This document shows, one piece after another, positions 4,608-62,800 of a stretch of DNA of 64,000 nucleotides. The stretch comes from Cupriavidus sp. 2SB. Its GTDB lineage: Bacteria > Pseudomonadota > Gammaproteobacteria > Burkholderiales > Burkholderiaceae. The notes beneath the pieces are model-generated. The model saw only the letters and a program-made list of their open reading frames with translations, did not search any database and was not told the origin of the DNA. The DNA lies in contig NZ_SCMX01000019.1 in the NCBI RefSeq assembly GCF_005503625.1, positions 1-64,000 on the forward strand, read 5' to 3'. How positions within the stretch are numbered: the stretch's first letter is position 1; each line of letters starts with the position of its first letter. The translations under genes were made by a program, and so were the position numbers.

Positions 4608-5153
4608 TCAGCCCACCAGCCGTCCGCGCCTGACGCGCATGCCCTTGCGGGCCAGTTCTGGCGCCATGTTGGCCAGCGTGCCGAGTGTGTTGCTGCCGTT
4701 GGCATGGCAGATTGCCACGCCGAGCGCATCGGCCGCATCGCTGCTCGGGCGTCCCGACAGCGCCAGCAGGCGCATCACCATTTCCTGCACCTGCTCCTTG
4801 TTGGCACGGCCATAGCCGACCACGGCCACCTTCAATTGCAGAGCGGTGTACTCGAATACCGGCAGACCCTGTCCAACGAGTCCGCAAATTGCCGCACCGC
4901 GTGCCTGCCCCAGCATCAGCGTCGACTGTGGATTGACGTTGACGAACACCTTCTCGATAGCCGCGCAGTCCGGCGCATAGGTGCGCGCCACCTCGGCAAT
5001 CCCGTCATAGAGCGTCTTCAGACGCTCCGGCAGGCTTTCGTCGCCATTGCTGCGGATCGTGCCCGATGCCACATAGGCCAGCTTGTTGCCGTGCTTCTCC
5101 AGCACGCCAAAGCCAGTGGTCCGCAAACCGGGATCGATACCGAGGATACGCAT
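4608..5153 (-). CDS. ruvC: Holliday junction resolvase RuvC
   Basis: RuvC is the dimeric endonuclease that nicks Holliday junctions symmetrically. The 181-residue product carries the full RNase H-like acidic set: D7 (ILGIDPG), E67 (CAAIEKVF) and D139/D142 (SSDAADALG), matching the D7/E66/D138/D141 set of the E. coli enzyme. The Lys/Arg-rich C-terminus ([14 protein letters not shown]) is typical of the betaproteobacterial protein. It lies downstream of purH, as is common in this group, but a half copy of the dispersed repeat occupies the purH-ruvC gap. Confidence 0.98.
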
Positions 5154-5208: not shown

Positions 5209-5275
5209 GCTCCCTCTCCCTTTGGTTTGCTCCCCTCTCCCGCAAGCGGGAGAGGGGCCGGGGGAGAGGGCAGGC
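5209..5275. repeat. Half copy (D) of the CTCTCCC composite repeat
   Basis: A hairpin of the form CTCCCCTCTCCCGC - AA - GCGGGAGAGGGG followed by GGGGGAGAGGGC, preceded by a further CCCTCTCCC half-arm. It matches the left hairpin and adjoining arm of the full copies at 21701, 32385 and 62132, but the conserved core and right hairpin are missing. It lies between purH (stop 5312) and ruvC (start 5153), which are co-directional. Confidence 0.85.
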
Positions 5276-5311
5276 GTGTCCAGCGCCAGTGCGCCGGACC
5301 TTGCCTACGTC

Positions 5312-6886
5312 TTAATGCCGGAAATGCCGCGTGCCAGTCAGCACCATCGCAATCCCGCGTTCATCAGCTGCAGCAATCACTTCATCGTCGCGCATCGAGC
5401 CACCCGGCTGGATCACCACGCTGGCGCCGGCATCCACCACCACGTCCAGACCGTCACGGAACGGGAAGAATGCATCAGATGCCACCGCCGAACCGGCCAG
5501 CGTCAAGCCGGCGTTCTGTGCCTTGATGCTGGCGATGCGGGCCGAGTCCACGCGGCTCATCTGGCCGGCGCCGACGCCCAGCGTCATGCCGTTGCCGCAG
5601 AATACGATGGCGTTCGACTTCACGAACTTGGCCACGCGCCAGGCGAACATCAGATCGTCCATTTCCTTCGGCGTCGGATGGCGGCGCGTCACCACGCGGA
5701 GTTCGGACGGCTGCACGTTGCGTGCATCCGGACCCTGCACCAGCAGGCCACCGCCCACGCGCTTCAGGTCATACTGGTTCATGCCACGGCCGAGCGGGAT
5801 TTCCAGCAGGCGCACGTTCTGCTTGGCCGCAAACACGTTGCGCGCAGCGGTGCTGAACGACGGGGCGATCAGCACTTCCACGAACTGCTTCGCCACGGCT
5901 TGTGCAGCGGCTTCGTCCAGTTCCACGTTGAAGGCGATGATGCCGCCGAAGGCCGAAGTCGAATCGGTCTTGAACGCCTTGTCGTAGGCTTCCAGCGCAT
6001 TGGCGCCAATGGCCACGCCGCACGGGTTGGCGTGCTTGATGATCACGCACGCGGCGCCGGCGGTGGATTCGAACGACTTCACGCATTCCCATGCGGCGTC
6101 CGCATCGGCGATGTTGTTGTACGACAGTTCCTTGCCCTGCAGTTGCACGTAGTTGGCCAGTGCACCGTCCACAGCCTTGAGGTCGCGATAGAAGGCGGCC
6201 GACTGGTGCGGGTTCTCGCCGTAGCGCATTTCCTGCACCTTCTCGAAGGCCAGGTTCAGGGTCTGCGGGTAGCTGCTGCGGCCCTGGTGCGACTTGTCGG
6301 CGCCGAGGCTGGTCAGGTAGTTGGTGATCGCGCCGTCGTACTGGGCCGTGTGCGCGAACACCTTGGTGGCCAGGCGGAAGTTGGTGTCGTAGCCCACGCT
6401 GTTGGCGTTGGCGCGCATTTCGTCGAGCACCACGGCGTAGTCGACGGGATCGACGATCACGGTCACGTCGCGGTGGTTCTTGGCCGCCGAGCGCAGCATG
6501 GTCGGGCCGCCGATGTCGATGTTCTCGATGGCGTCCGGCAGCGTGCAGTCATCCTTGGCCACGGTCTGCTGGAACGGGTACAGGTTCACCACCAGCAGGT
6601 CGATCGTCGGGATCTTGTGCTCGGCCAGGGCAGCCATGTGCTCGGGCAGGTCGCGGCGGGCCAGAATGCCGCCGTGGACCTTCGGGTGCAGCGTCTTCAC
6701 GCGGCCGTCGAGCATTTCAGGGAAGCCGGTGTAGTCGGCCACTTCCGTGACCGGCAGGCCGGCATCGGCCAGCAGCTTGGCGGTGCCGCCGGTGGAAAGC
6801 AGCGTGACGCCGAGCGCGTTCAGTTCACGCGCGAATTCGACGATGCCGGTCTTGTCGGAAACGGAGAGGAGTGCTTGCTTGATCAT
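5312..6886 (-). CDS. purH: Bifunctional AICAR transformylase/IMP cyclohydrolase
   Basis: Catalyses the last two steps of de novo purine synthesis: formylation of AICAR with 10-formyl-THF, then cyclisation to IMP. The 524-residue product has an N-terminal MGS-like cyclohydrolase domain (about 1-190: [40 protein letters not shown]). It is followed by the transformylase domain with the catalytic Lys-His pair in [11 protein letters not shown] and the [10 protein letters not shown] and [11 protein letters not shown] motifs. It starts 16 bases after the fis stop codon and is clearly in the dusB-fis operon. Fis control of this operon is suggested by the palindrome near 8348. Confidence 0.98.
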
Positions 6887-20594: not shown

Positions 20595-20645
20595 TGCCGG
20601 ACCACGTCTTTCGTTTTCCTAAATTTGAAGTTTGAGCGACGCTCC

Positions 20646-21674
20646 ATGACCGAACAGACCAAGACCGATACGCGTCCCGTCATCCTGACCGGCGACCGCC
20701 CCACCGGCCCGCTTCACCTGGGTCACTTCGTAGGGTCCCTGAAGAGCCGCGTGCAGTTGCAGGAAACGCACAAGCAGTACGTGCTGCTGGCCGACACGCA
20801 GGCGATGACCGACAACGCGCACGATCCGGAGAAGGTGCGCCGCAACGTGCTGGAAGTCGCGCTCGATTATCTGGCCGTGGGCATCGACCCGGCCAAGACC
20901 ACGATCACGGTGCAGTCGCACCTGCCGGCACTGGCCGAACTGACCCTGATGTATCTCAACTTCGTCACGGTCTCGCGTCTCGAACGCAATCCGACGATCA
21001 AGGAAGAGATCCAGGCGCGCGGCTTTGGCCGTGACATCCCGGCGGGTTTCCTGTGCTACCCGGCGTCGCAGGCTGCGGACATCACGGGTTTCAAGGCCGT
21101 GCTGGTGCCGGTGGGTGAAGACCAGGCCCCGTTGATCGAGCAGACCAACGAGATCGTGCGCCGCATCAACCATCAGGTTGGCCGCGACGTGCTGCCCGAA
21201 GCCACCGCGCTGATCCCGAAGCATGGCCGTCTGCCGGGCGTGGATGGCAAGGCCAAGATGAGCAAGTCGATGGGTAACTCGATTCCGCTCGGCGCCTCGC
21301 CGGACCAGATCCGCGAGGCCGTGCAGAAGATGTACACCGACCCGAACCACCTCAAGGTGTCCGACCCGGGGCAGGTCGAGGGCAATGTCGTGTTCACCTA
21401 CCTCGACGCGTTCGATCCGAACGTCGAGGAAGTGCAGGCGCTCAAGGACCACTACCGACGCGGCGGCCTGGGCGACATGGTGCTCAAGCGCCGAGTGGAA
21501 GGCATCCTGCAGGAAATGCTGCGTCCGATGCGCGAGCGCCGCGAGCAGCTGGCGCAGGACCCGGGCTACGTCTTCGACATCCTCAAGAAGGGCACCGAAG
21601 AAGCCCGCGAACTGACCCAGCAGACGCTGGACGAAGTGCGTGGGGCGCTGGGGATGTTCTCGTTTCCGAAGTAA
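20646..21674 (+). CDS. trpS: Tryptophanyl-tRNA synthetase
   Basis: Class Ic aminoacyl-tRNA synthetase that charges tRNA-Trp. The product is 342 residues from ATG MTEQTKTDTR; an in-frame TTG 7 codons earlier is possible but has no better ribosome site. HIGH-type motif GPLHLGHFVGSL is at about 22-33, the KMSKS motif (GKAKMSKSMGNSIPLG) at about 205, and the tryptophan-pocket region MYLNFVTVSRLERNPTIKEE fits TrpRS. It is 51 bases downstream of ksgA on the same strand. It ends just before a copy of the composite repeat that separates it from a convergent gene. Confidence 0.94.
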   Translation: MTEQTKTDTRPVILTGDRPTGPLHLGHFVGSLKSRVQLQETHKQYVLLADTQAMTDNAHDPEKVRRNVLEVALDYLAVGIDPAKTTITVQSHLPALAELTLMYLNFVTVSRLERNPTIKEEIQARGFGRDIPAGFLCYPASQAADITGFKAVLVPVGEDQAPLIEQTNEIVRRINHQVGRDVLPEATALIPKHGRLPGVDGKAKMSKSMGNSIPLGASPDQIREAVQKMYTDPNHLKVSDPGQVEGNVVFTYLDAFDPNVEEVQALKDHYRRGGLGDMVLKRRVEGILQEMLRPMRERREQLAQDPGYVFDILKKGTEEARELTQQTLDEVRGALGMFSFPK

Positions 21675-21700
21675 AACTTGGATGTTCCCTTCGGTGTTCT

Positions 21701-21825
21701 GCCCTCTCCCGCAAGGCGGGAGAGGGGCGGGGGAGAGGGCAAGCAGTTCAAATTGCCGCACGTCGGCAAGCAGAACCTCCAGCGCTCACCCTCAACCCCT
21801 CTCCCACTCCATGGGAGAGGGGAGC
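21701..21825. repeat. Composite CTCTCCC repeat, full copy A
   Basis: Left hairpin CCCTCTCCCGC/GCGGGAGAGGGG, arm GGGGGAGAGGGC, core with TTCAAATTGCCGCACGTCGG and CAAGCAGAACCTCC, then a complementary arm and right hairpin CCCCTCTCCCACTC/ATGGGAGAGGGG. Inside the core TTGCCG-CACGT-CGGCAA forms a third hairpin. It lies between the convergent trpS and DMT exporter genes and could act as a bidirectional transcript end. Confidence 0.9.
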
Positions 21826-21831
21826 CAACAA

Positions 21832-22737
21832 CTATCCCTTCCGATTCACCAGCACAATCCCCCCCAATACCAGCACCGCCGCCACGGCGAATCTCACGCC
21901 CACCTGGTCGTGCATCAGCAGCACACCAAATGCCACGCCGAACAGCGGGGTCAGGAACGAGAAGACCGAGAGGCGCGAGGCCAGGTACTGGCGCAGCAGC
22001 CAGAACCAGATCAGGTAGCTGGCGAACGCCACGAGCACCGACTGGTAGAACAGGCTCGCCACCACAAAGCCGTTGACCTCCACGCGATGCACTTGCCCCG
22101 CCGCCAGGGCCATCACGAGCAGCAGCACGGCCGAGACCGTCAACTGATAGAGCAGCGTCTTGCTGGCCGGTGCGTGCGACAGTTTGCTGCCGCGTACCAC
22201 GATCGTTGTAGCCGCCCATAGCGCCCCAGCCACTACGCCCAGCGCATCGCCGAGCAGTGTGGACGATTGCGCTGACGACGAGACGATGCCATCGGCGAAG
22301 GCCAGCACCATGCCGCAGAACGCCATGACCACGCCCAGCCACTGGCCGCGCTGCAAATGCTCGCCCGGAACAAAGAGGTGCAGCCCCAGCGCGGTGAAGA
22401 TCGGTGCGGTGTAGAGGAACACGGCCATACGCGAGGCGGTGGTGTGGCCCAGTCCGACAAAGATGCAGAAGAACTCCGCACCGAACAGCAAACCGGCGAC
22501 GATGCCGGGCCGCAGGGTGCCGTCATGTTCCCAAAGCGGGGTACGGCGCCATGCCGCAAACGCGAAGACGAGCAGCGCAGCGATGGCGGAGCGGACGCCG
22601 GCCTGGAGTACGGCGCCCATCAAGGGCGCCGTGACCTTGATCACAACTTGCTGGAGTCCCCATGCGGCGCACAGCAGGACCATCAATCCGATGGCCATGC
22701 TGTCCAGCGGGCGCCTTGTTATTGTTTGCGTGCCCAT
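21832..22737 (-). CDS. DMT-superfamily (EamA) transporter
   Basis: 301-residue inner-membrane protein with ten hydrophobic segments in two EamA repeats (first from MAIGLMVLLCAAWGLQQVVIK, second from ALGVVAGALWAATTIVVRG). The glycines and Trp of the first helix (AAWGLQQVVIK) and VFLYTAPIFTALGL near helix 4 are typical of drug/metabolite exporters of the RhaT/EamA type. Substrate cannot be told from sequence. It is followed on the minus strand by copy A of the repeat; gloA lies 12 bases upstream, so the two may share a transcript. Confidence 0.9.
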   Translation of the reverse strand: MGTQTITRRPLDSMAIGLMVLLCAAWGLQQVVIKVTAPLMGAVLQAGVRSAIAALLVFAFAAWRRTPLWEHDGTLRPGIVAGLLFGAEFFCIFVGLGHTTASRMAVFLYTAPIFTALGLHLFVPGEHLQRGQWLGVVMAFCGMVLAFADGIVSSSAQSSTLLGDALGVVAGALWAATTIVVRGSKLSHAPASKTLLYQLTVSAVLLLVMALAAGQVHRVEVNGFVVASLFYQSVLVAFASYLIWFWLLRQYLASRLSVFSFLTPLFGVAFGVLLMHDQVGVRFAVAAVLVLGGIVLVNRKG

Positions 22738-29742: not shown

Positions 29743-31395
29743 TCAGGCCGGCCGCCGCGCACGCCGTGCGCGGAAGGCCAGGCCCAGCACGAGTACGCAA
29801 CCGGCCAGCACTGGTACGTTGCCCCAGCGGATATAGGGCGTCAGCCCCTGCATGCCCTGGACTTCCGCCGCCAGCGTACCGACCTCGAAAGTCGGCAGGG
29901 CCGCCTGGACGCTGCCGTCCGGCCGGACTACGGCCGTCATTCCCGTATTGGTGGCGCGCAGCATCGGGCGGCGCATTTCCAGCGCACGCATGCGCGAGAT
30001 CTGCAGATGCTGGTCCAGCGCGATGGTGTCGCCGAACCAGGCCAGGTTAGTCACGTTGGCCAGCAGGTTGGCGGGCGTGGGCTGGTTCCTAAGCGTCTCG
30101 GCGATTTCCTCGCCGAACAGATCCTCGTAGCAGATGTTCGGCGCCACGTGGATGCCGCGCACCGGTACAGCCGGTTGGTCGAGCGTGCCGCGTCGGAAAT
30201 CTCCGAGCGGCATCTTCATCATGTCCACGAACCAGTGGAAGCCAAACGGGATGAACTCGCCGAAGGGCACCAGATGGTGCTTGTTGTAGCGATAGAGCTG
30301 TTCCTGTTCCGGCCCGATGGCAAATACGCTGTTTGTAAAATCTACGGGCGAATCTGCGCCGGCCGCACCGAACACGACCGTGGTGCCCGTCTTTTCCATA
30401 TAGCCGCGCACCGCCTGGGCGATGTCCATCGGCAGTTCCTGGAGGATGATCGGGAACGCGGTCTCGGGCGTCACCACAAGGTCTGCCGGCGCTGCCGTGA
30501 TCAGGTCGCGATAGAGTTCCAGCGAGCGCTGGATGCCGGCGGGTTCGAACTTGATGTCCTGCGCCACGTTGCCCTGCAGCAGCCGTACCGAGAGTGGCTT
30601 GCCGATCGGCGTGGTGTAGGCGATGCCCGCCAGGCCGATGCCGCCCCCCAGTGTTGCCACGATCACACCCGCCGACCAGCCGGCGGTCGTTGTCGCGCCA
30701 GCTTCGCTGCGCCTCAGCCAGGCCCGAACGCCCGTAGCGAGTAGGGCCGCGAGGCTCGCGGCAAGGAATGTGATGCCGTAGACGCCAAACAGCGGGGCGA
30801 AGCCTGCTAGCGGACCATTCGTATGCGGATAGCCGCTGCCAAGCCACGGGAATCCTGTGAACACCACGCCGCGCAACCATTCGGACAGCGCCCAGGCGGC
30901 GCCAAATGCCAGCGCAGCTAGCATGCCGTGACGATTGCGTTGCGTGAGCCAGTGCCAGACCCCGGCCGCCAGCGCCGGCCAGATCGACAAATAACCAGCG
31001 AACAGCACCACGGCAAATGCGGCCATCCAGGCCGGCATCTCGCCGTAGACGTGCATGCTGATATAGAGCCACCAGATACCGGACAGGAACCAGCCCAGGC
31101 CGAACGCGTAGGCCGTAGCCGCCGCTGCGCGCGGACGCGGTGCGCCTGCGATCAGGGCAAACAGGCCGGATAGCGCCAGCAGTTGCAGCCACCACCAGTC
31201 ATGCGGGGCGAAGGCTTGCGTATGCGCCACGCCCAGGACGGCGGCGATCAGGAGACGAAACCACTGACTGCTGCGGGAGGTGGCTTGCAAGGCTTCCGGG
31301 GTGTGCGGGGAGTGGGAGGGCGACGCGCTGGCGCCGCCGCTGGCTGGCTCGGTGCGACGGGTACCCACGGCATCGGGCGTGCCGAACCGCTTCAT
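29743..31395 (-). CDS. lnt: Apolipoprotein N-acyltransferase Lnt
   Basis: Adds the third acyl chain to the N-terminal Cys of lipoproteins in the inner membrane. The 550-residue product has a variable 40-residue N-terminus, six or more membrane helices and a nitrilase-type periplasmic domain. The catalytic triad is visible as Glu in VTPETAFPII, Lys in the YRYNKHHLVPFGEF region and Cys in NICYEDLFGEE. A final helix (VPVLAGCVLVLGLAFRARRARR) ends it. The ATG overlaps the corC stop by 4 bases; corC-lnt coupling is widely conserved. Confidence 0.97.
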   Translation of the reverse strand: MKRFGTPDAVGTRRTEPASGGASASPSHSPHTPEALQATSRSSQWFRLLIAAVLGVAHTQAFAPHDWWWLQLLALSGLFALIAGAPRPRAAAATAYAFGLGWFLSGIWWLYISMHVYGEMPAWMAAFAVVLFAGYLSIWPALAAGVWHWLTQRNRHGMLAALAFGAAWALSEWLRGVVFTGFPWLGSGYPHTNGPLAGFAPLFGVYGITFLAASLAALLATGVRAWLRRSEAGATTTAGWSAGVIVATLGGGIGLAGIAYTTPIGKPLSVRLLQGNVAQDIKFEPAGIQRSLELYRDLITAAPADLVVTPETAFPIILQELPMDIAQAVRGYMEKTGTTVVFGAAGADSPVDFTNSVFAIGPEQEQLYRYNKHHLVPFGEFIPFGFHWFVDMMKMPLGDFRRGTLDQPAVPVRGIHVAPNICYEDLFGEEIAETLRNQPTPANLLANVTNLAWFGDTIALDQHLQISRMRALEMRRPMLRATNTGMTAVVRPDGSVQAALPTFEVGTLAAEVQGMQGLTPYIRWGNVPVLAGCVLVLGLAFRARRARRPA

Positions 31396-32279
31396 GCCTC
31401 AGCCATGCCGTCGACTTCGGCAGGCGTCTCGCGCCGTACCTGGAGCAGGTGGACCTGACGGGCATCGGCCCGCAGGACCTCGAAGCGGATCGGTGGCAAT
31501 GTGATGACTTCGCCGCGATGCGGCACATGGCCGACGTGGTTCGTCAGCAGTCCGCCCACCGTATCGACATCGTCGTCCGGGAATGCCGTGCCAAACGCTT
31601 CGTTGAACTGTTCGATCTCGGTGAGGCCATGCACGCGCCAGGCGCCGTCGGCGGTTGGCAGGATCTTGTCCAGGTCCTCGTCGAGGTCGAACTCATCCTC
31701 GATATCGCCCACGATCTGTTCCAGCACGTCCTCGATGGTGACTAGGCCCGCCACGCCGCCGTACTCGTCGACCACGATCGCGATGTGATTGCGGTTGATG
31801 CGGAACTCGCGCAGCAGGATATTCAGCCGCTTCGACTCGGGAATGAACACGGCGGGGCGCAGCGCCTCGCGCAGGTCGAACGTGTCATCCGTGTAGTAGC
31901 GCAGCAGATCCTTGGCCAGCAGGATGCCGATGACGTTGTCGCGATTCCCTTCGTACACCGGAAAGCGCGAGTGCGCCGTCTGCTGCATGTAGGGAATGAA
32001 CGCTTCTGGGGCATCGGCGACGTTGACCGCATCCATCTGGGAGCGGGGCACCATGATGTCGCGTGCGGTCAATTCGGAGACCTGGAACACCCCCTCGATC
32101 ATCGAAAGCGAATCGGCGTCGATCAGGTTGCGCTCGTGGGCATCCTGCAACACTTCGAGCAATTCGGCGCGGGTGTCTGGCTCGGGGGAAATGAAATCGG
32201 AGAGGCGTTCGAGAAGGGATCTAGGGCGATCCGTCTGCTTGAAGTTGGCAGATTTCGAACTGGGATAGGGGTCGTTCAT
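31392..32279 (-). CDS. corC: CorC/HlyC-family CBS-domain protein
   Basis: Cytosolic CBS-pair protein historically linked to Mg/Co efflux via CorA (E. coli YbeX). The 295-residue product starts MNDPYPSSK; the longer open frame upstream runs through the repeat at 32385 and is not coding. The first CBS motif follows DIMVPRSQMDAV, the second includes NHIAIVVDEYGGVAGLVTIEDVLEQIVGDIEDEFD (about 170-205), and the CorC/HlyC C-terminal domain ends with VDTVGGLLTNHVGHVPHRGEV. It is coupled to lnt. The usual ybeY-ybeX link here is interrupted by a 256-base gap with a composite repeat. Confidence 0.95.
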   Translation of the reverse strand: MNDPYPSSKSANFKQTDRPRSLLERLSDFISPEPDTRAELLEVLQDAHERNLIDADSLSMIEGVFQVSELTARDIMVPRSQMDAVNVADAPEAFIPYMQQTAHSRFPVYEGNRDNVIGILLAKDLLRYYTDDTFDLREALRPAVFIPESKRLNILLREFRINRNHIAIVVDEYGGVAGLVTIEDVLEQIVGDIEDEFDLDEDLDKILPTADGAWRVHGLTEIEQFNEAFGTAFPDDDVDTVGGLLTNHVGHVPHRGEVITLPPIRFEVLRADARQVHLLQVRRETPAEVDGMAEA

Positions 32280-32384
32280 GTCGCGGCTAGCGCGTGGTGG
32301 AGATCGCTTGAAGCATACACTAAAAGGCTTGCAGCCCCGTGACGGGGGGATGACGGTGGCGTATGAGGCTCTTCCGGGGAGAAC

Positions 32385-32516
32385 GCTCCCCTCTCCCACA
32401 AAGTGGGAGAGGGGTTGGGGGAGAGGGTAGGAGGCTCTGCTTGCCGACCTGCAGCAATTTGAACCGCTGGCCCTCTCCCCCTGCCCCTCTCCCGCCCGGC
32501 GGGAGAGGGGAGCAAA
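32385..32516. repeat. Composite CTCTCCC repeat, full copy C (inverted)
   Basis: Reverse complement of the orientation of copies at 21701 and 62132. Terminal hairpins GCTCCCCTCTCCCAC/GTGGGAGAGGGG and CCCCTCTCCCGCC/GGCGGGAGAGGGGAGC flank a core which, inverted, reads GGTTCAAATTGCTGCAGGTC then GGCAAGCAGAGCCTCC. The core hairpin stem is kept by a G-U type pair (TTGCTG/CGGCAA). It separates ybeY from corC on the minus strand. Confidence 0.9.
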
Positions 32517-32535
32517 CACTGAGCAGGTCAGCGCC

Positions 32536-33297
32536 TTAGATCTCCCGCACCGGCTGATAAGGATCGCTGTACCCCAGCGCCTGCAGCGTCTCCGTTTCAA
32601 TCGCTTCCATCTCTTCGGCGTCGGTGTCGTCGTCGTGCTCGTAGCCCTGGGCGTGCAGCACGCCGTGGACGATCAGGTGTGCGTAGTGGGCTTCCAGCGG
32701 CTTGTTCTGTTCGCGGGCCTCGGCTTCCACCACGGGGCAGCACAGCACGATATCGCCGCTCACCGGATCGTCGGCGGTCTCCGCATAGGCGAAGGTCAGG
32801 ACGTTGGTGGCGTAATCCTTGCCGCGATAGGTGCGGTTCAGCGTGCGGCCTTCTTCCTCGTCGACGAAGCGCACGGTCAGCGTGGCGTCTTCATACAGGG
32901 CGGATTTCACCCACTTTTCGATCTGGCGGCGGCTCGGCATTCCCGCGCGCTTGGCCGTGGCCTGTCCGTGCTGTACGTCGAGATCGACTTCCGGCGGCGT
33001 GGCCGGCGTGCCCGTGGTGGTCACGATCGGCGTGGCGGTGACGGCCACCGACAGCGCGTCGCTGTTGTCCGGGCGAACCAGCAGGCCAGCCTGTTGATGC
33101 GGGTCGGTGTGTTCGGCGAGCAGTGCCACCACGCCGTCCTCGGCTTGCGACAGATCCAGCGTCAGGCTGCGGCCATCGGCCAGCTGGACGCGCAGCGCAT
33201 GGGCGGATGCCTTGCGCGCGCGGCCCTCGGCGTCGAACAGCACCAGGCTGGCGGATTTCTTGTTCGAGGTCTGGGTGTTGGGGGACTTCTTGGTCAA
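32536..33297 (-). CDS. ybeY: Endoribonuclease YbeY with long N-terminal extension
   Basis: Zn-dependent RNase involved in 16S rRNA 3' maturation and ribosome quality control. The zinc motif [12 protein letters not shown] is at residues 211-222 and the typical [16 protein letters not shown] precedes it. At 253 residues it is about 100 longer than E. coli YbeY (155). The canonical part begins near residue 102 ([11 protein letters not shown]). Residues 15-90 form an extra block with two beta-hairpin-like segments ([55 protein letters not shown]) followed by a Thr/Pro linker. Its ATG is 2 bases from the phoH stop, so the extension is in the natural operon reading frame. Confidence 0.93.
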
Positions 33298-62103: not shown

Positions 62104-62131
62104 CGTTCGGTTCAATCTACCGCTGGTTTTT

Positions 62132-62250
62132 CCCTCTCCCTTTGGGAGAGGGGCAGGGGAGAGGGCAGGCGGTGCAAATTGCCACTGTTCGGCAAGCAGA
62201 ACCTCAGGCCCTCTCCCCCAACCCCTCTCCCGCAGGCGGGAGAGGGGAGC
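62132..62250. repeat. Composite CTCTCCC repeat, full copy B
   Basis: Left hairpin CCCTCTCCC-TTT-GGGAGAGGGG, arm GGGGAGAGGGC, core GCAAATTGCC...GGCAAGCAGAACC with a TTGCC/GGCAA stem, arm GGCCCTCTCCCCCA, right hairpin CCCCTCTCCCGC/GCGGGAGAGGGGAGC. The right half is translated as the end of the next gene on the minus strand. Confidence 0.9.
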
Positions 62251-62800
62251 TTATAAACCCAAACCGCTTCTCCACCTCCGCCTCCACGATCGGCTCGATT
62301 TCAATATCGCGGCCATCGTAGTGGAAGACCCCCAGCGTCGCCCCGCAGGCTTCGCCATGCCAATCGCTGGTCGTACTGAACGCATCCAGATCATGATCGT
62401 GGAGCAGCGCCGCCTGCTCGCCATCCACGCCGTCGACCGTGCCCGACAGCAACACATTGCCGTGCTCATCGGCAAAGCATGAAGCCGGAACAAACGCGCG
62501 GCTCGTCGTGGTGGACAGCACGCCGTTGTGCAGCCGCACGATCCATGGTGTGTACATCAGCGAAACAAACACGCGCTGCGGCCCGTTCTGGAAGTACCAG
62601 CCGCCGTGTTCGTCTCGCGTGTAGTTGCGTTCGATAAAGGCGATCAGCGCCTCATGCCGGATCGGGTCGCCGGACAGGCCGTGCTGTTGCGCGAACTCGT
62701 TGCGCATGCGCCATTGGCCGCGCCGGTCCAGCGCCAGCCAGCCGTAGCAGTTCGGCACGTTCGGCCAGCGGGCCATGGCTTGCCTGACAACTTCGTCCAT
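62204..62800 (-). CDS. Conserved hypothetical with repeat-encoded C-terminus
   Basis: 198-residue cytoplasmic protein; family number not certain to me, but the start MDEVVRQAMARWPNVPNCYGWLALDRRGQWRMRNE and the middle part YTRDEHGGWYFQNGPQRVFVSLMYTPWI belong to a conserved DUF of Burkholderiales. The last 15 residues (SSPLPPAGEGLGERA) and the stop codon are read from copy B of the composite repeat, so the natural end was probably near KRFGFI. It lies 16 bases downstream of the YheT-type hydrolase and is likely co-transcribed with it. Confidence 0.82.
   Translation of the reverse strand: MDEVVRQAMARWPNVPNCYGWLALDRRGQWRMRNEFAQQHGLSGDPIRHEALIAFIERNYTRDEHGGWYFQNGPQRVFVSLMYTPWIVRLHNGVLSTTTSRAFVPASCFADEHGNVLLSGTVDGVDGEQAALLHDHDLDAFSTTSDWHGEACGATLGVFHYDGRDIEIEPIVEAEVEKRFGFISSPLPPAGEGLGERA

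Follow-up and report, generated by a model that had tools for sequence, protein, structure and literature searches.

A doublet-dominated, high-copy variant of the BoxC-type repeat in Cupriavidus

Results

The window, a 64,000-nucleotide stretch of the Cupriavidus sp. 2SB genome, contains three full copies and one partial copy of a palindromic repeat (Table 1). A preliminary description had placed full copies at 21701, 32385 (inverted) and 62132 and had added a half copy; all four are present, with the somewhat extended limits given here. Two of the three gaps that hold full copies are convergent and one is tandem. The gene that ends ahead of copy 1 carries the PF00579 domain and is one that we take to be trpS; its product shares 95-96% identity with each of the five best named records, of which four are from Cupriavidus and one is labelled Ralstonia sp., and most of the other close matches are from Cupriavidus as well. 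A mechanically called ORF crosses copy 2, with its CorC/CBS domains confined to the part outside the repeat, and at copy 3 the final residues (~SSPLPPAGEGLGERA) and the stop codon of the neighbouring ORF are supplied by the repeat itself. The solo unit lacks a partner and lies between two ORFs that presumably correspond to purH and ruvC, which they resemble.

Table 1. Copies of the repeat in the window and the genes that adjoin them
Feature	Position	Strand	Remarks
Solo left unit	5225-5277	+	Hairpin plus third purine strand, partnerless
ORF beside solo unit	4608-5153	-	
ORF beside solo unit	5312-6886	-	
Full doublet, copy 1	21694-21827	+	Left unit 21702-21739; core ~21740-21782; right unit ~21783-21822 (other strand)
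trpS-type gene	20625-21674	+	Convergent with the EamA-family gene
EamA-family gene	21832-22737	-	Convergent with the trpS-type gene
Full doublet, copy 2	32382-32517	-	Inverted; flanked by the YbeY and CorC/CBS genes
Mechanical ORF, CorC/CBS gene	31392-32600	-	Crosses copy 2; CorC/CBS domains within 31392-32300
YbeY gene	32536-33297	-	
Full doublet, copy 3	62126-62252	+	
ORF at copy 3	62204-62800	-	Convergent; terminates within the right unit

Each full copy is composed of a unit of ~37 nt, CCCTCTCCC-loop-GGGAGAGGG-linker-GGGAGAGGG, which is paired in inverted orientation and faces a core of ~44 nt. Aligning 43 well-scoring copies, and considering 135 full copies, yields the consensus GGTTTKCTCCCCTCTCCCG-loop-CGGGAGAGGGG-C-GGGGGAGAGGG-core-CCCTCTCCCCC-AA-CCCCTCTCCC-loop-GGGAGAGGGGAGCAAAC, with stems of 12 pairs, inverted terminal sequences of ~18 nt and a total length of ~132 nt. 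The triplex-type order of a Y tract, a loop, an R tract, a linker and a mirror third R strand, all on one strand, is present in the 135 full copies, and in 116 of them both halves are exact; in copy 1 the third strand of the right unit deviates from the consensus at several bases. Complementarity between window copies amounts to 85% over 102 nt for copies 1 and 2 and to 86% over 76 nt for copies 2 and 3. Copy 1 folds far better than its shuffles both as DNA (z = -6.6) and as RNA (z = -6.2; -77.8 kcal/mol), with none of 200 shuffles as good. The three-hairpin plan that had been proposed can be folded, and so can a single long hairpin. At the Rfam gathering score the window has a single match, a tRNA, and none at the element.

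The genome comprises 6.98 Mb in 174 contigs. A BLAST search of it gave 373 candidates, of which the best 40 were scored; the stretches around the matches provided the 43 aligned copies, from which a covariance model was built. Searching the whole genome with this model located the element in at least 148 distinct places, far beyond the copies in the window (the best 150 of 3,554 first-look candidates were scored and all 150 were significant). Genome-wide, the exact arm-core-arm pattern is found in 175 doublets, as opposed to 3 with a reversed control pattern, and the exact half unit 387 times against a control of 0. In the stretches examined, which were selected around copies, 257 of 270 exact halves overlap a doublet. 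The repeat is multi-copy, mostly intergenic and dispersed, with only two adjacent pairs among the 135 copies less than 400 nt apart. Contig ends carry many copies (for example those of C46, C53, C63, C99, C139 and C166), so that breaks in the assembly are probably due to the repeat, and the copy numbers may be underestimates. Short hairpins consisting of the outer arms only, with the exact pattern CTCCCCTCTCCC-N-GGGAGAGGGGAG, occur 75 times in this genome (control 0). Just one of them lies within the 581,514 bases in which most doublets are located, so that deletion from doublets is only a putative origin for them in this genome.

Sequence conservation resides in the CTCTCCC arms rather than in pairing of a core hairpin. 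Arms and third strands are nearly invariant across the 135 full copies, and the sole clearly variable third-strand position on each side is occupied by A or T only (A115/T20 on one side, T110/A25 on the other). These two positions are Watson-Crick-matched in 120 of the 135 copies (Fisher p=1e-9, related copies being non-independent) and likewise in 41 of 46 doublets of relatives, which favours arm-to-arm pairing alongside, or in place of, triplexes. A or T at such a position is also compatible with a purine-motif triplex. Altogether, arm pairing, compatibility with a triplex, recognition by a protein and correction templated by the hairpin are all consistent with the arm data, which do not discriminate among them. 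In the right hairpin, both pairs that close the loop show two-sided changes, in 14 and 16 of the 43 aligned copies; the first of these pairs is GC in 60 and AT in 43 of 135. As for the linkers, the left one is CG in 106 of 135 copies and the right one TTG or TTA in 93; other Cupriavidus genomes also have C with CC.

Measured between exact arms, the core is 41-46 nt long in 141 doublets of this genome (43-44 nt in 110 of them) and 40-47 nt in relatives. Cores within the genome are similar, with a median of 5 mismatches in 43 to the nearest neighbour and of 12 over all pairs; those of other Cupriavidus genomes differ yet can be aligned, and some genomes have several core types. The preliminary description held that a core hairpin, TTGCCG/CGGCAA, keeps its pairing while its sequence drifts, and here our data point elsewhere. 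Pairing of TTGC with GCAA is seen in 94% of cells, with zero two-sided changes in the 43 copies, and that of GGTTC with GAACC in 78%, with one two-sided cell; a further covariation count of the core structure gave 85.0% paired and one two-sided pair. What the core displays is sequence conservation, with no covariation worth naming, and its folds barely beat shuffles (the 135 cores of this genome have a mean z of -0.42, and 36 fall below -1; a set of 31 cores drawn mostly from relatives has a mean of -0.31, and 11 fall below -1). In a covariation scan of relatives' cores the sole clear signal was the third-strand A/T pair, for which the search pattern itself required A/T. Given such weak folding, a core hairpin maintained by compensation is unsupported. 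Cores of distant Cupriavidus doublets (in G026 and G254) have in common, within one half, a word resembling CACTTCGTNGA that may be a site for a protein.

We examined the distribution of the element among relatives. In a 249-genome sample of the family, a strict-filter model search matched 29 of the 30 genomes of the same genus, plus three of other genera. Exact doublets are found in 54 of 60 genomes of the genus, ranging from 1 to 175; control checks gave 110 against 8 in G190 and 6 against 6, hence no excess, in G159. In a class-wide sample, the half unit is present in 99 of 369 genomes, with a control of 0 in every row, and its highest count, 387, is that of the genome studied here. Three named plasmid records carry the element, all from Cupriavidus, with 96 model matches on both strands of the EM10 megaplasmid and 6 on the CH34 megaplasmid, while phage records gave zero matches. 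A second C. metallidurans record, apparently of the same strain as CH34 to judge by its source line, was excluded as a strain pair.

The same gap is variably occupied across species. Among 28 loci of relatives (L043-L070), 12 have one or more exact arms of the CTCTCCC type in the 400 nt behind trpS and 16 have none, one of the latter (L066) being rearranged and lacking the EamA neighbour. The forms found there vary from full doublets with other cores (L047, L064, L065) to a solo unit or the outer hairpin alone. Across 20 syntenic stretches of relatives (~396 kb), the hairpin pattern detected 9 hairpins in 8 loci, 8 of them in the trpS gap, one next to ybeY and none elsewhere. These differing forms in equivalent gaps suggest that the same gaps are re-used or retained while the form changes; the nearest sampled relative is ~90% identical, and the gaps have diverged too far for insertion junctions to be read.

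Copies are strongly associated with the 3' ends of genes. Neighbours were taken from a simple ORF caller and the stretches were selected around copies, so that the position figures are estimates. The 112 classifiable copies among the 135 are divided into 62 convergent, 46 tandem and 4 divergent, compared with 10, 110 and 32, respectively, for copy-free gaps of the same stretches (Fisher p=4e-19); the other 23 have no gene on one side and were left out of this split. A stop codon lies within 60 nt of 97 of the 112, and the distances to neighbouring stops have quartiles of 22, 27 and 39 nt (n=170). Another count of 23 out of 135 refers to copies that share more than 60 nt with a called ORF, such ORFs being skipped as neighbours; once these copies are removed, the division is 60/35/4 of 99, and 87 of the 99 lie no more than 60 nt from a stop codon. 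The intergenic or gene-end placement noted for the window copies is therefore a strong tendency of the repeat in the genome.

This placement is what gives weight to the strongest functional rival of our interpretation, namely that the element acts in RNA at gene 3' ends, where transcribed hairpins would terminate mRNAs or shield their ends and would insulate convergent genes from each other, the copies being retained for this function. The RNA fold of copy 1 and the two-sided changes at the loop-closing pairs of the right hairpin speak for it as well. However, the hairpins are without a T-tract in the flanks of the 43 copies, a terminator-like site was not found at copy 1, tandem copies favour neither strand (24 of 46), and 16 of the 28 relatives' loci do without an exact arm behind trpS. 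Moreover, earlier work cited in sections of PMC4666352 found E. coli PIT elements to be without terminator activity. The suggestion of structured RNA ends has the position behind stop codons in its favour, and we regard an RNA role as possible but doubtful.

With its inverted terminal sequences of ~18 nt, its length of ~132 nt and its high copy number, the element also has the appearance of a MITE, which some transposase recognising the GGTTTKCTCCCC ends would mobilise. Against this, the 126 copies with both flanks show no consistent target-site duplication, in agreement with what had been remarked for the window. The best 3-nt duplication, out of ~1,200 offset pairs per length, is shared by 8 of the 126 copies, where permuted pairs give 2.1, no length from 5 to 9 nt reaches 4 copies, and the longest direct word common to both flanks is 4.33, versus 4.40 in permuted flanks. 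We consider this origin highly improbable.

Another candidate for mobilisation is a RAYT: the genus has a RAYT-like HuH transposase encoded by a single-copy gene, and the doublet would be its REPIN-type substrate. According to sections of PMC3116915 and PMC8049555, REPINs, like the Cupriavidus doublet, have two inverted conserved ends, a length-sensitive spacer of conserved length and a long hairpin, and form a dispersed population around a consensus. The search for a RAYT that had been proposed did find a single RAYT-like match in each of 58 Cupriavidus genomes out of 60, and the gene of the present genome exceeds the Pfam Y1_Tnp cut-off. However, CCCTCTCCC is absent from 21 RAYT-like loci of 3.3 kb each, meaning that no copy flanks the gene (no unit within ~1.5 kb), and the NCBIfam REP-transposase cut-off is reached in 0 of 60 genomes. 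Six genomes (G059, G123, G249, G251, G252 and G276) have the gene and zero exact doublets, four of them with 1 to 17 exact halves, while G277 has no RAYT-like match, yet holds 106 exact halves and 3 doublets. The Cupriavidus half also differs from a REPIN end in being itself a hairpin with a third strand, and inspection of the hairpin foot revealed no tag of the GTAG type, a REP feature in sections of PMC3733652. Given these flanks and scores, and a presence that does not track copy number, the gene is a weak candidate and the REPIN reading is unlikely; the gene resembles a transposase that has been inherited vertically and perhaps domesticated. At the RAYT-like locus of this genome (L123, G000:C90 ~41560; others are L128-L147), GGGGACAG and TGTCCCC words occur nearby, and the adjoining gene is one that we take to be dgt-like. 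The BIME and REP sequences of enterobacteria are mosaic palindromes that often lie near gene 3' ends, and their sequence appears to differ from that of the Cupriavidus repeat.

Discussion

The element is a doublet-dominated, high-copy variant of the known BoxC-type repeat. Its unit follows the BoxC/PIT/TM plan of a Y tract, a loop, an R tract, a short linker and a third R strand (sections of PMC4666352 and PMC2267715), a plan identical to that of the E. coli TMs in Table 1 of PMC4666352, and both repeats are dispersed and intergenic. The idea of a REP-like, structurally maintained element accordingly survives as a dispersed palindromic, REPIN-like doublet, with BoxC/PIT/TM as its closest family and without support for a RAYT link. 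In PMC4666352, BoxC, PIT and TM(ECO) are one repeat, with 3,610 copies in 262 proteobacterial genomes and a maximum of 143 per genome; it has been on record since the 1990s, its function and spreading mechanism without an accepted answer. The main text of that paper mentions none of Cupriavidus, Ralstonia or Burkholderia, and our searches of an open-access library listed no paper whose title or opening of the abstract treats this repeat in Cupriavidus. Using one half unit as a BLAST query, 1,650 of 5,426 E. coli genomes were matched, with weak E-values (best 0.2).

The likeness extends to the inverted doublets of E. coli. In the five MG1655 doublets that we read, third strands point inward in four, the layout of Cupriavidus, and GGTTTTCT / CGTTTTCT to the left of two of the five matches the left end of the Cupriavidus element. 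According to sections of PMC4666352, all five E. coli inverted doublets combine two different linkers, TTA of type A and CCG of type B, and the third-strand position that varies between A and T is mostly T in E. coli TMs, whereas it is mostly A in Cupriavidus. There are further differences. Doublets dominate in this genome, in contrast to E. coli BoxC; stems have 12 pairs rather than 9-10 (as read from Table 1 of PMC4666352); the core of 40-47 nt exceeds the spacers of 18-29 nt in the E. coli doublets; and copies are close to gene 3' ends, whereas E. coli TMs are more often upstream than downstream of ORFs (sections of PMC4666352).

Based on these results, we propose, with a probability of roughly 70%, that the element is a BoxC/PIT/TM-type repeat whose usual unit is the inverted doublet, which spreads at a low rate, is lost by deletion and survives behind stop codons. 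Each half consists of a CTCCC/GGGAG hairpin and, after it, a third purine strand; as a mirror repeat it could in principle adopt an intrastrand DNA triplex. Two halves meeting at the ~44 nt core, rather than the single half, would be the unit that is propagated. Against triplexes, DMS revealed no stable ones in vivo in E. coli (sections of PMC4666352), and in Cupriavidus cells they are a prediction from sequence. The doublet may spread inside the genome at a low rate, probably via single-stranded or hairpin DNA at replication forks; against this, most copies in E. coli remain assigned to one locus (sections of PMC4666352). Deletions that leave the short outer hairpin alone would account for loss, and the short outer hairpins of this genome resemble the 'palindrome effect' described there. 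Copies would then persist mostly right behind stop codons, chiefly between convergent genes, presumably because they do least harm there or confer some mild benefit at the 3' end.

We also put forward, tentatively, a broader reading in which BoxC-type doublets are a class of dispersing palindromes of their own. They would form sequence populations in which the whole doublet spreads. Such doublets would depend on a factor other than a RAYT, perhaps replication-fork or repair proteins acting on single-stranded hairpin or triplex DNA, would have a core that is fixed in length while it drifts and marks lineages, and would land or survive at gene 3' ends. If so, such dispersal may be under way now in Cupriavidus, whose sampled genomes hold between 0 and 175 exact doublets each. 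Regardless of this broader reading, a genus with that range of doublets, lineage-specific cores and strong 3'-end placement makes the function and spread of BoxC testable. For annotation, copy 3 serves as a warning that the repeat can encode the end of a gene.
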